Shown one piece after another: positions 35,550-42,826 of a stretch of 64,000 nt of DNA. Under the pieces are notes generated by a model, which made no database searches, was not told the DNA's origin, and was given only the letters and a program-made list of their open reading frames with translations. Positions within the stretch are counted from its first letter, which is position 1, and every line of letters begins with the position of its first letter. Location of the stretch: positions 635,599 to 699,598 of the forward strand of contig NZ_JHEG04000001.1 of assembly GCF_000760695.4 (NCBI RefSeq). Direction: 5' to 3'. Source of the DNA: Tolypothrix bouteillei VB521301 (GTDB lineage: Bacteria > Cyanobacteriota > Cyanobacteriia > Cyanobacteriales > Nostocaceae). The translations under genes and the position numbers were made by a program.

Positions 35550-38081
35550 CTAATCAATTTGACACAACCAAGATTCACTTAAAATTTTTTCGGCAATGGG
35601 GTGTTTTGTTATTGTTCCTGGTTTAGAGGTATCATGCCATCCTTGCCAAGTCTGAGCAGCTAGTGTGGAAAACTCACCCCGCACGTGGAACCAGGTAGGA
35701 TTATCCTCTCTACTCCAGAGACTATAAAGCAAATCTAGAACTTTCTCAGACGTGTGGTTACTCATTTGATTGAGTTTGCTGTTACAAGATTCCGTAAAAC
35801 CTTCCTGAAAAACTCTGCTCAGTCCCTCTCGAATACTAAAGTTACTTAGCTTCTTCGAGCATCTTGCAATATTGAAAAGTGCATCACAAATTCGACGGTT
35901 CAATCCCAAATAAACAGAACCCTTAAGTGCTTCTAAAAAACTCTCTAATGCTGCGATCGGTTCATCTTTAATTAAGAGCAAATATTCTCCTTTTAACAAA
36001 GAAATTTCTGAAAGCACTGCTTGACAAAAATTAGGGCTGTGACCGGTAGTTAAATCAGCCTTAGCATACTTCTCAGCAAAACTTAAGGCTTCTATTGGCA
36101 AATGGCTATCTCCAAGTCTGACCAAAACTCGCCCTGCTAAAGCTAGCCATCTAGCCATTCTTTGTGTTAAACCAATACGTGATGCATAATGAGCAGCTTT
36201 GAAGAAATGTGTTGCGGCTTCTTCAAGAGAATTGCGATCGTTAGAAAGATAGAACTGTATTCGCGCAGCATTTCCATAAATTTCAGATAAGGCTTGATAA
36301 ATATCTAATCCTGGGTCTTTATAACACGAGCCTGGTTTAATTGCCTTTCTAATTTCACGGTCCCATTCTTCTAAGCCAAGCCACTTTTTCCTCTTGCTTG
36401 ATTCAAATAAATCTGGGTGGTGCCCGCACGAAAGTTCATACAAATAAATTTCAGACTGGATAAGAGCTTGAATGGGAACTAGCTGTTTCTTGACTTCGCA
36501 ATCTTCTTCAAGAGCTTCTGTAATTGTTTGGATCAGCAGTTTTGCATTACTGATATTACCTAGAAAATTTGATAGCCTGAGTTCTAATCGTTTTGCCAGA
36601 AAATAGCAACGGTAGAAATTGAGTCGATATGAAAAGTAGATTTTTTCCTTGGGAATTTTCTTCAATTCCTCTCTAGCTATATCGGCAATCCTCTTAATTT
36701 GTGCAGAGCGACATTCTTCATCAAGGAATTGGAAATTTTGAAAAGCCATCCTAACATTGGTTAATCTCGTCCTTAGCTCGGAGAGAGTTTTGCATACAGA
36801 ACCATAAATTTCTAAATTGAGGCTTCCATTCCAACTTTGCTCTGCTAGCCATTGCTTTGCAGCACAGACAATTGCTTGCAGCATAGTAATCATTGAATCT
36901 CGATCGACCCAAATCCCTTGATACTTTTGTTGATTTCCTAAAACGACTGTTGTTTCAACTAAGGAATCAATACTGCTGTCTAAGGTTTTTGTTGATAGGG
37001 TTACGTTAGCTATTTCTTCAGTTAAACCCATGTGTAAGCTACAAGCACCAATAGCATTCTCCACTATCGTATTACTAGAGGTATACATCCATTCAAGAAA
37101 TTCATAAGATTTACCATCATGACTAAAGCTACACGTTACCATTGCCATAATTACGGGGTTGAGCGAATTTAGGGAGTGCGCTTCTAGTCCCATTGTCGGG
37201 CACATTCCTGGAGTCTTCAATTCGCACTCTGCTTGGTGGCTAATTTGTACAAATTTATCGTAGAGATTGCTATATTCTTTTTCCCGGTTAATGGTTCGCG
37301 ATAAAGTTTTGAATTCCAACTTTTGAACTCTAATATGAAGGTTAGTTGGATATTTAAGCATTTGCTCTTTAATGGTAATACTTAGGAAAAGTGCAATTGC
37401 TTCTTGTCGGGAGAAATTAGTTTTTCCTCCAGCTTTTAGTCTTTCCCAAGTTCTCTGCAGTTTCTCAATAACCTCCAATCTCAGTTTTAAACCTAAGGTT
37501 GGGTAGGATTTTCTCAGATTGTTAATGAAATATTCAAGGGAGTCATTCTCAGGAGTATCGGAGGAGTTTAAAAAAAGCTTGTTGCTTGCGATCGCGACTT
37601 TGTTGCTAGCAATTGCTACAAACTCCTGAGTAGTAGAGCGTAAATCTTCCAATTCCAGTAACTCCAGCAATGCAGCTATTTGCGCTACTTGAAAAAATCT
37701 CTCCGACGTAACTCGGATAATCTTTGTTTTCTCTGGCAAAAAACCAGCAGACTCCAGTAGTTCATCGGCTCCTGTATCTCCCAATAACTTTCGCAGTTCG
37801 TCAGGGCTTGATTCTAGTTTTTCTTTTTCTGATGTGTTTTGAATCTCTCGTTTTAATTTTCTTTTGGATGCTCTACGACTGCGAAGATTTTTGCACAGTT
37901 GAATCAACCCTTCGCGATCGACGGGTAACCGTTCTTTTTCCTTATTGAGAAAATCGATCACCACAGGCCGGCTAACACCCATTCCTTCTGACAGCTCTAC
38001 CTGCGTTGCTCCCATTTTTTCTAGGAAGAAGTGGAGCATCTCGCGCAGCGCTTCTTGGTCTCCAACACTTTCTTTGCCCAT
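35550..38081 (-). CDS. Large HTH protein with TPR-like C-terminus
   Basis: Residues about 9-65 form an XRE-like helix-turn-helix (TQVELSEGMGVSRPVVIDFL). Residues about 590-760 look like TPR helices (HFFKAAHYASRIGLTQRMAR, IAALESFLEALKGSVYLGLN). The roughly 450 residues between are helical, with a Cys/His-containing stretch (ECELKTPGMCPTMGLEAHSL). VAIASNK is repeated in tandem near residue 160. The plan recalls HTH-TPR regulators that sense a peptide or partner protein, but is far larger. It lies in the toxin-antitoxin/restriction region. I do not recognise a named family. Confidence 0.7.
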   Translation of the reverse strand: MGKESVGDQEALREMLHFFLEKMGATQVELSEGMGVSRPVVIDFLNKEKERLPVDREGLIQLCKNLRSRRASKRKLKREIQNTSEKEKLESSPDELRKLLGDTGADELLESAGFLPEKTKIIRVTSERFFQVAQIAALLELLELEDLRSTTQEFVAIASNKVAIASNKLFLNSSDTPENDSLEYFINNLRKSYPTLGLKLRLEVIEKLQRTWERLKAGGKTNFSRQEAIALFLSITIKEQMLKYPTNLHIRVQKLEFKTLSRTINREKEYSNLYDKFVQISHQAECELKTPGMCPTMGLEAHSLNSLNPVIMAMVTCSFSHDGKSYEFLEWMYTSSNTIVENAIGACSLHMGLTEEIANVTLSTKTLDSSIDSLVETTVVLGNQQKYQGIWVDRDSMITMLQAIVCAAKQWLAEQSWNGSLNLEIYGSVCKTLSELRTRLTNVRMAFQNFQFLDEECRSAQIKRIADIAREELKKIPKEKIYFSYRLNFYRCYFLAKRLELRLSNFLGNISNAKLLIQTITEALEEDCEVKKQLVPIQALIQSEIYLYELSCGHHPDLFESSKRKKWLGLEEWDREIRKAIKPGSCYKDPGLDIYQALSEIYGNAARIQFYLSNDRNSLEEAATHFFKAAHYASRIGLTQRMARWLALAGRVLVRLGDSHLPIEALSFAEKYAKADLTTGHSPNFCQAVLSEISLLKGEYLLLIKDEPIAALESFLEALKGSVYLGLNRRICDALFNIARCSKKLSNFSIREGLSRVFQEGFTESCNSKLNQMSNHTSEKVLDLLYSLWSREDNPTWFHVRGEFSTLAAQTWQGWHDTSKPGTITKHPIAEKILSESWLCQID

Positions 38082-38925: not shown

Positions 38926-39141
38926 ATGACGAGCAATCTATTTAAGTGGGCTTGTACGGGTCTGAAATATTTTCTGTGGACTTTGCTTGGTTTTGCGATC
39001 GCACATGTGATATTTCAAATTTTTGGAGTTTCTACTGTTTCAATACTTCTGTTCTCCGTTTTCTTGCCATGGATTGCCCGCATTGCAATCTTTATCTTCT
39101 GTTTGTTTGTCGTTGCCATAGTCCATGAGTCTTGTAGCTAA
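38926..39141 (+). CDS. Small two-pass membrane protein
   Basis: From ATG 38926 (preceded by AAGGAC) the protein has 71 residues with two hydrophobic segments, FLWTLLGFAIAHVIFQIFGV and IARIAIFIFCLFVVAIVHES. An in-frame ATG at 38905 would add seven residues. No family is recognised. Such small hydrophobic proteins next to defence genes can be toxins or simply orphan membrane proteins; nothing here decides. Confidence 0.5.
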   Translation: MTSNLFKWACTGLKYFLWTLLGFAIAHVIFQIFGVSTVSILLFSVFLPWIARIAIFIFCLFVVAIVHESCS

Positions 39142-39299
39142 TTCAGAATATCGTTGTAAATATTACAGATGGTAACATCTTACCTGGGTTGGTTTTGCTG
39201 AATTTACCCATCACTCCAACCCTTCTCTTCATAGGAGAAGGGAGTTTGTACTTTTAAGGAGAAGTAGTGAGGAGAGTTTACAAACATTTTTAAAATCAG

Positions 39300-39328
39300 T
39301 TGACAATCTCATTTGAGTACTATAGTAT
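39300..39328 (+). promoter_or_regulatory. Promoter of the DNA methyltransferase gene
   Basis: TTGACA (39300-39305) and TAGTAT (39323-39328) are separated by exactly 17 bases. Transcription would start near 39335, at or just before the ATG at 39336, so the mRNA would be leaderless. The -10 lies inside the candidate controller box. Confidence 0.65.
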
Positions 39329-39332
39329 TCAA
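39319..39332 (+). promoter_or_regulatory. Candidate controller box upstream of the methyltransferase
   Basis: ACTATAGTATTCAA, with the perfect palindrome ACTATAGT, overlaps the -10 region. The identical 14 bases occur upstream of the controller gene (41478-41491). Binding here would block RNA polymerase, giving repression of the methyltransferase. Confidence 0.65.
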
Positions 39333-39335
39333 AGT

Positions 39336-40496
39336 ATGATGTATAAGTTAATTGATTTATTTGCTGGTGCGGGTGGATTAACTACAGGATTTCACTTAGC
39401 AGGGTTTGAATCTTTGTGTGCTGTTGATATAGACACAAAAGCTTTAGCAACCTATAAACTTAACTACCCAAACACTAAGATTGTCAATCAGGATATAAGT
39501 AAAGTAGATCCTTCAGAACTACGTTTATCGCTTAACTTGAAGCAAGAAGAACTAACAGCGTTAATTGGTGGTCCTCCTTGTCAAGGTTTTTCTAAAAACA
39601 TTCCTGCTCGCGAACGCAGTCTGAACGATCCTCGCAATCAACTGTACAAAACTTTTTTGGAATTTGTACAAGAGTTCAGACCTCTTTATGTCGTTATGGA
39701 AAATGTGTCTGAAATCTTGAAGGCATATGATGGTGTAGTTAAAAATGAAATAACGGAGCAACTAAAATCGTTTGGGTACAAAGTTGTTTCAGCTTCCTTA
39801 AATGCTGCTCATTATGGAATACCGCAAACTAGAACTAGGGCATTTTTTATTGCTAGTTTGGATAAAATACCCTCCTTTCCCACGCCAACACATTATGAAA
39901 ATACTCGGAGAGATCGTAGCTCTGTAAAATTGTGCGATCGCCAGATGAATTTATTCGATCTAGATAGTTCTTCAATGGTTACAGTGAGAGATGCAATTGG
40001 AGATTTACCACCATTAGATGCAGGGCAAGAATATGTTGATGGGGATTATCCATCAACTCCACAAACCTCATACCAAACTATAATGCGTAATGAGAGTACA
40101 AAAATTGTTAACCATATTGCCCGTACTTTAACTCCGATTCAAAGAGCAAGAGTCTGTCTTCTAAAAGAAGGGCAAGATGCAAGAGACTTACCACCAGAAT
40201 TAGCTCCTAAGAAACATTATAGTGGAGCTTATGGAAGGCTTTACTGGGATAAACCAGCAAAAACAATTACAAGATGGATGTTTCATCCTGGTTCTGGTAG
40301 GTTTTTTCATCCTACGCAAAATAGAACTATCACAATACGAGAGGCAGCCAGATTGCATTCTTATCCGGATAACTTTCACTTTGTTGGGTCATATACCGAT
40401 ATGGCTTCTCAAATTGGTGAATCTGTTCCTCCGCTGTTAGCTAAAGCAATTGCTATATGTTTGCATCAGAATTGTTATCAAAAAAAGGGTTATTAA
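39336..40496 (+). CDS. DNA (cytosine-5-)-methyltransferase of a type II R-M system
   Basis: The 386-residue enzyme has the ordered m5C motifs: LIDLFAGAGGLTTGF (I, SAM binding), GGPPCQGFS (IV, catalytic Cys), VVMENV (VI), QTRTRAF (VIII) and QIGESVPPLLAKAIA (X). It protects host DNA from the adjacent endonuclease by methylating cytosine in the recognition site. The frame is open from a TTG at 39300, but that TTG belongs to the -35 box; ATG 39336 (or 39339) is the start. Its 3' end overlaps the convergent endonuclease gene by 44 bp. Confidence 0.93.
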   Translation: MMYKLIDLFAGAGGLTTGFHLAGFESLCAVDIDTKALATYKLNYPNTKIVNQDISKVDPSELRLSLNLKQEELTALIGGPPCQGFSKNIPARERSLNDPRNQLYKTFLEFVQEFRPLYVVMENVSEILKAYDGVVKNEITEQLKSFGYKVVSASLNAAHYGIPQTRTRAFFIASLDKIPSFPTPTHYENTRRDRSSVKLCDRQMNLFDLDSSSMVTVRDAIGDLPPLDAGQEYVDGDYPSTPQTSYQTIMRNESTKIVNHIARTLTPIQRARVCLLKEGQDARDLPPELAPKKHYSGAYGRLYWDKPAKTITRWMFHPGSGRFFHPTQNRTITIREAARLHSYPDNFHFVGSYTDMASQIGESVPPLLAKAIAICLHQNCYQKKGY

Positions 40497-41208
40497 TTTG
40501 CGATTGTAAAGCAGCAAGGATAGTCGTTACATAACGCTCGAGTATAAGACGAATTCGTTCAATATTAATACGAACAGCGTTGGTAAGAATTGTTCTTGCT
40601 TTGAAAAGTTGTTTTTGATTTTTGTACCATACTAAATCTGTTTTTCCTGCTATATTTCCTTGCAAACCTACTCCTTGTTTCCCAGAAATTTTATTGACTG
40701 TCCAAGCCCAAGAAAATGTAGTTGAATCGAGTGGCTCAAGTTCATATTCACAATAAACATATTCAGTACCTTGTATATTTTTTAAAAGTATACCTTCGTA
40801 ACTGTTAATAACTCTTTGTAATGACTGGCTTGTTAAAATCTTTTCGTTCCAATGTTGAATAATAGCTTCTCCTAATTCTTGTGGTGAAGATTGTTCAGTA
40901 AGACCGGGAAATCCAAGTTGATTAGCTTTTTTAATCACATCTGCTCTCTGAATTACAAAAAAAAATGTGTTTCCTGATGTGAAATTATTAAGTTGAAGCG
41001 ATTTCAAAGACCAACCAGTCTGAGTCGTAATATCAACAGCATCATAAAGAAGTTTGGTACGTCCTAAAGCTGGATCGGAAAGAGGAATATCTTTTACGTA
41101 ATGAAAAATTGCTTCCCAAGCATAATCTTCTATTGAGCCAATAACCGGAGATGCTACAGTAGCGATTATGCCTTTCCTTAATCTGTCTATTTCATTGTCT
41201 GTCAACAC
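40453..41208 (-). CDS. Probable type II restriction endonuclease
   Basis: The 251-residue protein is assigned mainly by position: it follows the controller gene with a 17-bp overlap and converges on the methyltransferase. An acidic/lysine cluster, EDYAWEAIFHYV followed by YDAVDITTQTGWSLKS, could be a degenerate PD-(D/E)XK nuclease site. The rest (LKNIQGTEYVYCEYELEPLD and others) is unfamiliar. The recognition sequence cannot be predicted. Its start lies within the controller gene's end, so translation is probably coupled. Confidence 0.7.
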   Translation of the reverse strand: MLTDNEIDRLRKGIIATVASPVIGSIEDYAWEAIFHYVKDIPLSDPALGRTKLLYDAVDITTQTGWSLKSLQLNNFTSGNTFFFVIQRADVIKKANQLGFPGLTEQSSPQELGEAIIQHWNEKILTSQSLQRVINSYEGILLKNIQGTEYVYCEYELEPLDSTTFSWAWTVNKISGKQGVGLQGNIAGKTDLVWYKNQKQLFKARTILTNAVRINIERIRLILERYVTTILAALQSQINNPFFDNNSDANI

Positions 41209-41437
41209 TTAAAGATTCCTCTACGGCTCGGAAAAATTCGCTCATGGTTGTATTTAAAGCATTAGTAATATGGTTGAGAACCCTAACAGATGGGCTTTTC
41301 AAACCGCGCTCTAGTTGGCTGATATACGTTCTGTGCAGACCTGTCACTTCTGCCAAATACTCTTGAGACCAGCTTTTTTCTAGACGACGGCGTTGTATTT
41401 CTAACCCTAATATTTGATCTAGTTGACTAGGCTGCAT
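41192..41437 (-). CDS. Controller (C) protein of the R-M system, XRE type
   Basis: At 81 residues it has the usual C-protein length and is almost entirely one helix-turn-helix: LGLEIQRRRLEKSWSQEYLA, then EVTGLHRTYISQLERG, then SVRVLNHITNAL. C proteins activate their own and the endonuclease gene and repress the methyltransferase, delaying restriction until DNA is protected. MQPSQLDQI at 41437 is chosen; the TTG-started extension to 41491 runs through the operator. The candidate C-box lies 41-54 bp upstream. Confidence 0.85.
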   Translation of the reverse strand: MQPSQLDQILGLEIQRRRLEKSWSQEYLAEVTGLHRTYISQLERGLKSPSVRVLNHITNALNTTMSEFFRAVEESLSVDRQ

Positions 41438-41477
41438 AATCAAGAACATTAAGGCTTTGAATACAAAAGTGCTACAG

Positions 41478-41491
41478 ACTATAGTATTCAA
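41478..41491. promoter_or_regulatory. Candidate controller box upstream of the C-R operon
   Basis: ACTATAGTATTCAA on the plus strand is identical to the methyltransferase copy. It lies 41 bp before the controller ATG, where an autoregulatory site is expected. Nearby GACTATAGT also resembles the GACT...AGTC core of known C-boxes. Confidence 0.65.
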
Positions 41492-41513
41492 TACGATTCT
41501 ACAAGGTGCTGTA

Positions 41514-42167
41514 TTAACTTTCAGGTAACTTACACCTTAAAGAGTTAAAAACTGTCTCTGCTTTTTGCACGCCATCCTCACCATGAGTCAATAGAATAAC
41601 AAAATAACGGTTGTTGCCAATTACCACACTCGTTTTGTAACTAATAGTAAACTGACTTTTGGCATCGTCTGGTAATTTCGTTACCCCTTCTTCCACAGTT
41701 ACCTGCGTTGGTGAACCACAAAGCTTTTTAGGTTCTGACCTCGAAGTAGAGACTTGAAAATTATCTCTGTCTCCGAGAAACGTGCTATCTAGAATTTGCT
41801 CAACTTGCTTTTTGTCTGTTTGCGAATCAATGACCACCCTAGCTACCAAAAGCCGTATATCAGGATTGTCACCGTTACTGGTAATAAGTGCTATTTGCGC
41901 TCCTGCTAACTTTAAACCAAGTACACCTTGAGAACCATCTGGAAAGCTATAGTTCATAATACTCCTAGCTATAGCTTCTGCTCTTTGTGGCTTGAAAGCA
42001 TTTGTCGTAAATTGAATCGCTAGCCCGGTGATACCAATCATGACTAGAAAAATAGCCCCAAAAAACACAGAAATTATTTCTAGTAACGTAACTTTGTACT
42101 TGGAATTTTTTGGTGGTAAGACTTGGTTCATTTGAGTTTGTTCAGGAGCTATGCGGTTCAATTCCAT
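41514..42167 (-). CDS. Conserved-looking membrane-anchored hypothetical protein
   Basis: The 217-residue protein has one N-terminal membrane segment (about 27-50, LLEIISVFFGAIFLVMIGIT) and a large outer part with SYKTSVVIGNNRYFVILLTH and EDGVQKAETVFNSLRC. I do not recognise a named domain; the general plan is frequent in cyanobacteria. It lies directly upstream of the controller gene on the same strand, but the controller box between them suggests separate transcription. Confidence 0.6.
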   Translation of the reverse strand: MELNRIAPEQTQMNQVLPPKNSKYKVTLLEIISVFFGAIFLVMIGITGLAIQFTTNAFKPQRAEAIARSIMNYSFPDGSQGVLGLKLAGAQIALITSNGDNPDIRLLVARVVIDSQTDKKQVEQILDSTFLGDRDNFQVSTSRSEPKKLCGSPTQVTVEEGVTKLPDDAKSQFTISYKTSVVIGNNRYFVILLTHGEDGVQKAETVFNSLRCKLPES

Positions 42168-42416: not shown

Positions 42417-42629
42417 TTATTCTTCCAAATCTTTTTCCGTAATTCCCGCATCTTTCATGATGCTTTTCAAAGTTCCTATTGGCAAATCTCGATTACTATG
42501 AACGGGTATGGAAAGGATGGCAGGAACATCTTCTTTGGCATAGATATGATGACTGCCAGTTATTCGCTTCAACTCCCAACCATGCCGTTCCACTACTTTA
42601 CATAGAGCCTTACCAGAAATAGCTTTCAT
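42417..42629 (-). CDS. hicA: HicA-type toxin (mRNA interferase)
   Basis: The 70-residue protein has the HicA double-stranded-RNA-binding-like fold: ISGKALCKVVERHGWELKRI, the catalytic-His motif GSHHIYAK, then SIPVHSNRDLPIGTLKSIMK and GITEKDL. HicA toxins cleave mRNA and are blocked by HicB. It follows hicB with a 4-bp overlap. Confidence 0.9.
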   Translation of the reverse strand: MKAISGKALCKVVERHGWELKRITGSHHIYAKEDVPAILSIPVHSNRDLPIGTLKSIMKDAGITEKDLEE

Positions 42630-42826
42630 ATCGATAGCTCAACTAACTGCTTCTCTGGCTCAATTTCTTCCCGCTCACTTGCAACTTCTAACCAACCTTG
42701 AACAGCGTCCTGTAACATCTCTAGCAAGTGTTCGTAGCTCTCTCCCCAAGTATGACATCCTGGTAATGCAGGTACAGAACCACACCACACTCCATTTTCT
42801 TGCCAAATAACCGCTTTAATTTTCAT
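42626..42826 (-). CDS. hicB: HicB-type antitoxin
   Basis: The 66-residue protein has the HicB partial RNase-H fold: VIWQENGVWCGSVPALPGCH, TWGESYEHLLEMLQDAVQGW and a C-terminal EKQLVELSI. No C-terminal DNA-binding domain is attached. It is first in the hicB-hicA pair, the order often seen in cyanobacteria. The structured block at 42835-43266 begins about 10 bp upstream of its start codon, so its promoter lies in or beyond that block. Confidence 0.9.
   Translation of the reverse strand: MKIKAVIWQENGVWCGSVPALPGCHTWGESYEHLLEMLQDAVQGWLEVASEREEIEPEKQLVELSI

Follow-up and report, generated by a model that had tools for sequence, protein, structure and literature searches.

The stretch of DNA analysed here (64,000 nt, referred to as the window) comes from Tolypothrix bouteillei VB521301 (assembly GCF_000760695.4), in which it occupies positions 635,599–699,598 of the forward strand of contig NZ_JHEG04000001.1. 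Judged by homology, one locus in the window is a type II restriction-modification (R-M) system in which a methyltransferase gene (M) converges on a controller-endonuclease pair (C-R); it is C-controlled, belongs to the FspI family and is conserved across cyanobacteria. The homology of all three genes thus supports the original prediction of a C-controlled type II system.

M (39336–40496, forward strand) encodes a C5-cytosine methyltransferase of 386 aa, which matches PF00145 with 217 bits and shares 73% identity with P0325, a protein named M.FspI by NCBI. The PF00145 match begins at residue 3, so that M has no N-terminal extension. R (40453–41208, reverse strand) has a GTG start at 41208, supported by 15 aligned homologues that share its first residue, and encodes a putative FspI-family endonuclease of 251 aa. 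The protein was detected by PADLOC (REase_II, PDLC03480, 427 bits), and a profile search returned neither a Pfam nor an NCBIfam match. It shares 72% identity with P0038, a Fischerella protein whose UniRef name is FspI. The identities of R and M to these named proteins place the system in the FspI family, with sequences about 28% diverged; the same C and M, together with both of the operators described below, are present at locus L020 of Fischerella muscicola. M and R share 44 bp at their 3′-ends, and such an overlap was observed in 39 of the 49 loci in which both ends could be read.

C (41192–41437, reverse strand) encodes a predicted controller protein of 81 aa with an XRE-type helix-turn-helix (PF01381; PADLOC Control_protein, 45 bits). 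Its best match among solved structures is C.BclI (46 bits), and C.Esp1396I (29 bits) and C.AhdI were matched as well. The 17 bp overlap of C with R was confirmed, and overlaps of 11–23 bp occur in all 44 loci where they could be measured. In having a small XRE-type gene that immediately precedes and overlaps R, the locus has the arrangement of C-controlled type II systems, for which overlaps of about 20 nt are described as usual (PMC2997769). AhdI, PvuII and other C-controlled systems likewise place C and R in a single operon in which the genes overlap (PMC2997769), but differ in their canonical GACT-type C-boxes and in having R from other families. PvuII-like systems described from cyanobacteria (PMC3850674) are also C-controlled and of type II; in these C is fused to R, whereas here the two are separate overlapping genes.

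Two other features of the neighbourhood were recorded. Genes for a HicA toxin (PF07927, 78 bits) and a HicB-like antitoxin lie at 42417–42826 on the reverse strand, some 1 kb away from the C-R promoter, and an 843-codon ORF at 35550–38081 on the reverse strand has no Pfam or PADLOC match.

Predicted promoters and operators before M and C

A 14-mer, ACTATAGTATTCAA, occurs at 39319–39332 and 41478–41491, and a search of both strands of the window found exactly these two copies. None of 100 dinucleotide shuffles gave two matches (mean 0.00). The first copy overlaps the −10 of a predicted M promoter (39300–39328, forward strand), which consists of TTGACA at 39300–39305, a 17 bp spacer and TAGTAT at 39323–39328. 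With 10 of 12 consensus matches, this is the top-scoring promoter-like site within 39100–41700, although the scan overall found no excess of sites (9, against 8.4 in shuffles). Its start point, which had been proposed to fall on the M ATG, is predicted on the ATG (39336) or 1 nt before it. TTGAC starts 35–36 nt upstream of the M ATG in 40 of the 44 C-bearing loci. A pattern scan also picked out a terminator-like hairpin at 39220–39242 (forward strand), ahead of the M promoter, one of four such sites where 1.5 were expected from shuffles.

The M copy of the 14-mer belongs to a 20-bp near-palindrome, TTGAGTACTATAGTATTCAA (39313–39332), which covers the M −10 and is dyad-symmetric at 18 of its 20 positions. 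We refer to this predicted single C-dimer site as OM. Only 4–5 nt separate its 16-bp core from the M ATG in C-bearing loci, which leaves scant space for a ribosome-binding site, and the M mRNA would be leaderless. The original prediction had M repressed by promoter occlusion on a leaderless mRNA; the position of the site and the geometry of the start fit this proposal, in which the repression and the leaderless message themselves are predicted steps.

The C-R copy, which lies 41 bp before the C ATG as had been noted, is part of a 35-bp tandem operator (41457–41491, reverse strand) that reads TTGAATACTATAGTCTGTAGCACTTTTGTATTCAA along the C strand. It comprises OL (41491–41477), a spacer TGTAG and OR (41471–41457), and its near end lies 19 bp from the C ATG. 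In appearance the site resembles two adjoining dimer sites, the outer halves TGAATAC and GTATTCA being those of OM and the inner halves being weaker. Of the 44 relatives compared, all have TGAATAC as the outer half of OL and 39 have GTATTCA as that of OR. The claim of an identical operator before both units therefore holds for the 14-mers, but the predicted functional units are longer and differ, a single palindrome before M and a two-dimer tandem before C-R. The C-R copy in most relatives reads TACTTTAGT rather than TACTATAGT; that the two copies match exactly is therefore mostly peculiar to this genome and seems partly accidental.

A candidate C-R −10, TAATGT, was read from the sequence 8 nt before the C ATG (41446–41451, reverse strand). 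Across 44 loci, the best C-R −10 is a block read as TAATCT that precedes the C ATG by 6–9 nt and has a pairwise identity of 0.68. The corresponding −35 position falls inside the operator and, as read by eye, is poor (TAGCAC in the window). The C transcript is probably leaderless too, and leaderless C transcripts are described as common among C-controlled systems (PMC4824078). A weak second promoter before C (41524–41496) was dropped because shuffles give equally many sites.

Conservation of the operators and loci without C

A scan of genomes yielded 46 loci, and R was present in 22 of the 145 genomes belonging to the family of the window, that of the window being one of them. Once 16 duplicates had been taken out, 52 loci including the window were left, and the M start was visible in 49. 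The M operator was counted where a site with at most two mismatches to the 16-bp core GAATACTATAGTATTC lay within 100 nt before the ATG, and the C-R operator where at most four mismatches separated a site from the 35-bp consensus. By these measures the M operator was found in 42 of 44 loci with C (including L041, whose C is cut by a contig end) and in none of five without C. The two misses despite C are L034, in which R is broken and half of the operator is left, and L045, in which C, R and the C-R operator are intact. The symmetric tandem operator before C-R was found in 45 of 46 loci, the sole miss being L040, where C is present and M is broken. The best background matches further upstream had 5–9 mismatches of 16 and 15–22 of 35, respectively. 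When 386 cyanobacterial genomes were searched, the C-R operator pattern was present in 10, each time next to C and a complete or partial FspI-type R, and at that stringency no second use of the pattern was found among the 386.

Mean pairwise block identity was 0.93 for the M operator (40 loci) and 0.89–0.98 for the C-R operator (44 loci), compared with 0.26–0.29 upstream, the range for M alone being 0.27–0.29. At fourfold sites of M, 0.52 were identical (39 loci, 741 pairs), and in the 367 most diverged pairs the value was 0.43, against 0.93 for the M operator. Recent shared ancestry therefore fails to explain the conservation, and this comparison among relatives shows both operators to be under selection. 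Several loci depart from the usual layout: in L040 and L041 the M frame is interrupted and TTGAC is gone from its usual place, L040 also being without the C-R operator, which could reflect decaying systems or assembly errors. In L038, ATT stands at the position of the relatives' M ATG, and R is truncated at 136 codons.

The C-less loci of the main set are four of Calothrix type (L015, L016, L019 and L027) and L051. A search of the 145 family genomes for M found a close one (E up to 1e-100) in 26, of which five (G030, G047, G084, G105 and G119) have no R. Their M loci, L103, L111, L112, L117 and L114, respectively, also have no close C, and no close C was found elsewhere in these five genomes, nor in the genome that carries L016 or in those carrying the duplicates of L015, L019 and L027. 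All these C-less genomes hold only distant XRE matches (27–36% identical); for L051 the absence was judged at the locus. The M operator was found in none of the ten C-less M loci, five of which were scored (3–8 mismatches) and five read by eye. On the M tree, the presence of C requires three changes, all forced by well-supported branches and best read as losses of C.

The Calothrix-type clade (support 100/99) is sister to L007 and L021, which have both C and the operator. It keeps TTGACA at −36 while the arms are altered, TTGATTAC becoming TTAATTAC and GTATTCAA becoming ATATTCTG or ACATTCTG. L051 and four G047-type loci have not kept such a promoter, and the G047-type M is also without the operator. 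In L022, L038 and L048, by comparison, R is truncated and the M operator remains, which indicates that operator decay tracks C and not R, bearing in mind that some of these truncations may be assembly errors.

Comparison with Esp1396I and the predicted mechanism

Esp1396I is a plasmid-borne system of an enterobacterial host in which OM, at the start of M, represses M; here M and R are of the FspI family and the host is a cyanobacterium. The two systems share convergent M and C-R units, an OM at the M start and a 35-bp two-dimer OL+OR before C-R, as well as a TATA-like core and an outer TG (PMC3758141; PMC4041747). By position and by conservation across the C-bearing loci, the window has this architecture, with a single C site at the predicted M start point. 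T36 and Y37 of C.Esp1396I are kept in C, while R46 is replaced by K and S52 by V, and all 45 aligned C proteins agree at these four residues (residue pairing read by eye). The outer half-sites are TGAATAC/GTATTCA here and GAC/GTC in Esp1396I. Most C proteins tested are described as recognising GACT-tat-AGTC pairs that flank a spacer centred on GT (PMC4824078). The spacer here keeps the GT, but the outer GAC/GTC has become TAC/GTA and GTC occurs only in the OL inner half, so the sites fall outside the GACT/AGTC class of C.PvuII. The suggestion that the box defines its own type is thus borne out in the outer halves and not in the core, spacer and outer TG, which follow the Esp1396I plan.

Building on the observed gene content, homology, operator positions, selection on the operators and absence of OM where C was lost, we consider that this is most probably an FspI-family (TGCGCA) R-M system, convergent and C-controlled, with the same mode of action as Esp1396I. 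The M promoter, which has a perfect −35, would fire in a naive cell and M would protect the DNA, while the C-R promoter would be weak owing to its poor −35. As C accumulated, a dimer would occupy the near-perfect palindrome OM at the M −10 and shut M down. A dimer at OL would activate C-R in a positive feedback, and once C rose further, a second dimer, bound at OR, would repress it; binding affinity would follow the order OM > OL > OR. Several points speak against this mechanism, namely L045 without the M operator, L034 with half of it and L040 without the C-R operator, the outer TAC/GTA instead of GAC/GTC, the changes R46 to K and S52 to V, and a promoter scan that did no better than shuffles.

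Alternatively, C could act on C-R only, the M palindrome being no more than a strong, conserved promoter or else being bound by a different regulator of the host. Promoter elements that would be conserved anyway overlap the M site, and L045 keeps C without it. However, beyond the −10 the arms of OM are conserved and symmetric and correspond to the C-R operator's outer halves, the C-less Calothrix-type clade retains TTGAC at −36 while its arms change, and the operator is missing from every C-less locus found, which makes this explanation improbable. It is less probable still that C binds the M site and activates M. C.Csp231I is described as raising both its C and M promoters (PMC4824078), but the site here covers the −10 of a promoter that already has a perfect −35, and its counterpart is the Esp1396I OM, a repressing site. 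That OM is situated at the M start site (PMC4041747). We give very little credence to autorepression by M through the palindrome, as by M.SsoII: there are C5 methyltransferases that control the systems they belong to (PMC6100179), but this M begins its PF00145 domain almost at its first residue and the ten C-less loci keep M and not the operator. Recent spread of one cassette, whose genes are close across genera, is equally hard to credit given the divergence at fourfold sites of M beside the conserved operator. Returning to the Esp1396I-like mechanism, its requirement that one regulator serve both promoters, as originally predicted, is supported by operator conservation and by operator absence in C-less loci.

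Predicted specificity and implications for the FspI family

FspI is described as recognising TGCGCA (PMC6449724), and the same specificity may be expected of this system. The window contains no TGCGCA, compared with 7.8 expected, and the 9.9-Mb genome has 18, compared with 711 copies of the reversed word ACGCGT. Fewer than four TGCGCA per Mb were found in 22 of 22 family genomes with R versus 67 of 123 without (Fisher p 8e-6, kinship ignored). Since depletion is widespread without R, it is weak evidence for the specificity, though consistent with it. Across the 144 family genomes and that of the window, TGCGCA is nearly absent from many Nostocaceae-type genomes, including many without an FspI-type R. 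Deamination of m5C as the sole cause of the depletion was dropped, as four genomes with M and no R have 25–30 sites per Mb; in G030, the fifth such genome, the figure is 0.8 per Mb, and M in these genomes may be inactive or recent.

Our literature search, most subscription papers lying outside it, found no paper on the control of the FspI system. The original prediction was correct in substance, its interpretation being partly supported: this type of arrangement is known, and in relatives that retain the C gene the operators are preserved nearly letter for letter, with likely C docking sites before both gene sets. FspI is a commercial restriction enzyme, and the analysis gives a predicted regulatory layout for its family. 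The roughly 45 conserved operators form a set on which recognition by C proteins that do not follow the GACT code could be tested, and C has apparently been lost in nature at least three times, which shows the fate of methyltransferase control without C. More tentatively, at a little under an even chance in our estimation, the cyanobacterial FspI controllers may form an operator-specificity class of their own (TGAATAC-TATA-GTATTCA) with leaderless M and C transcripts in many cyanobacterial families, and lineages may repeatedly have left this control by loss of C followed by breakage of the symmetric arm bases of OM, the M promoter being kept in one clade. If true, this would amount to a natural experiment on the dismantling of such switches.
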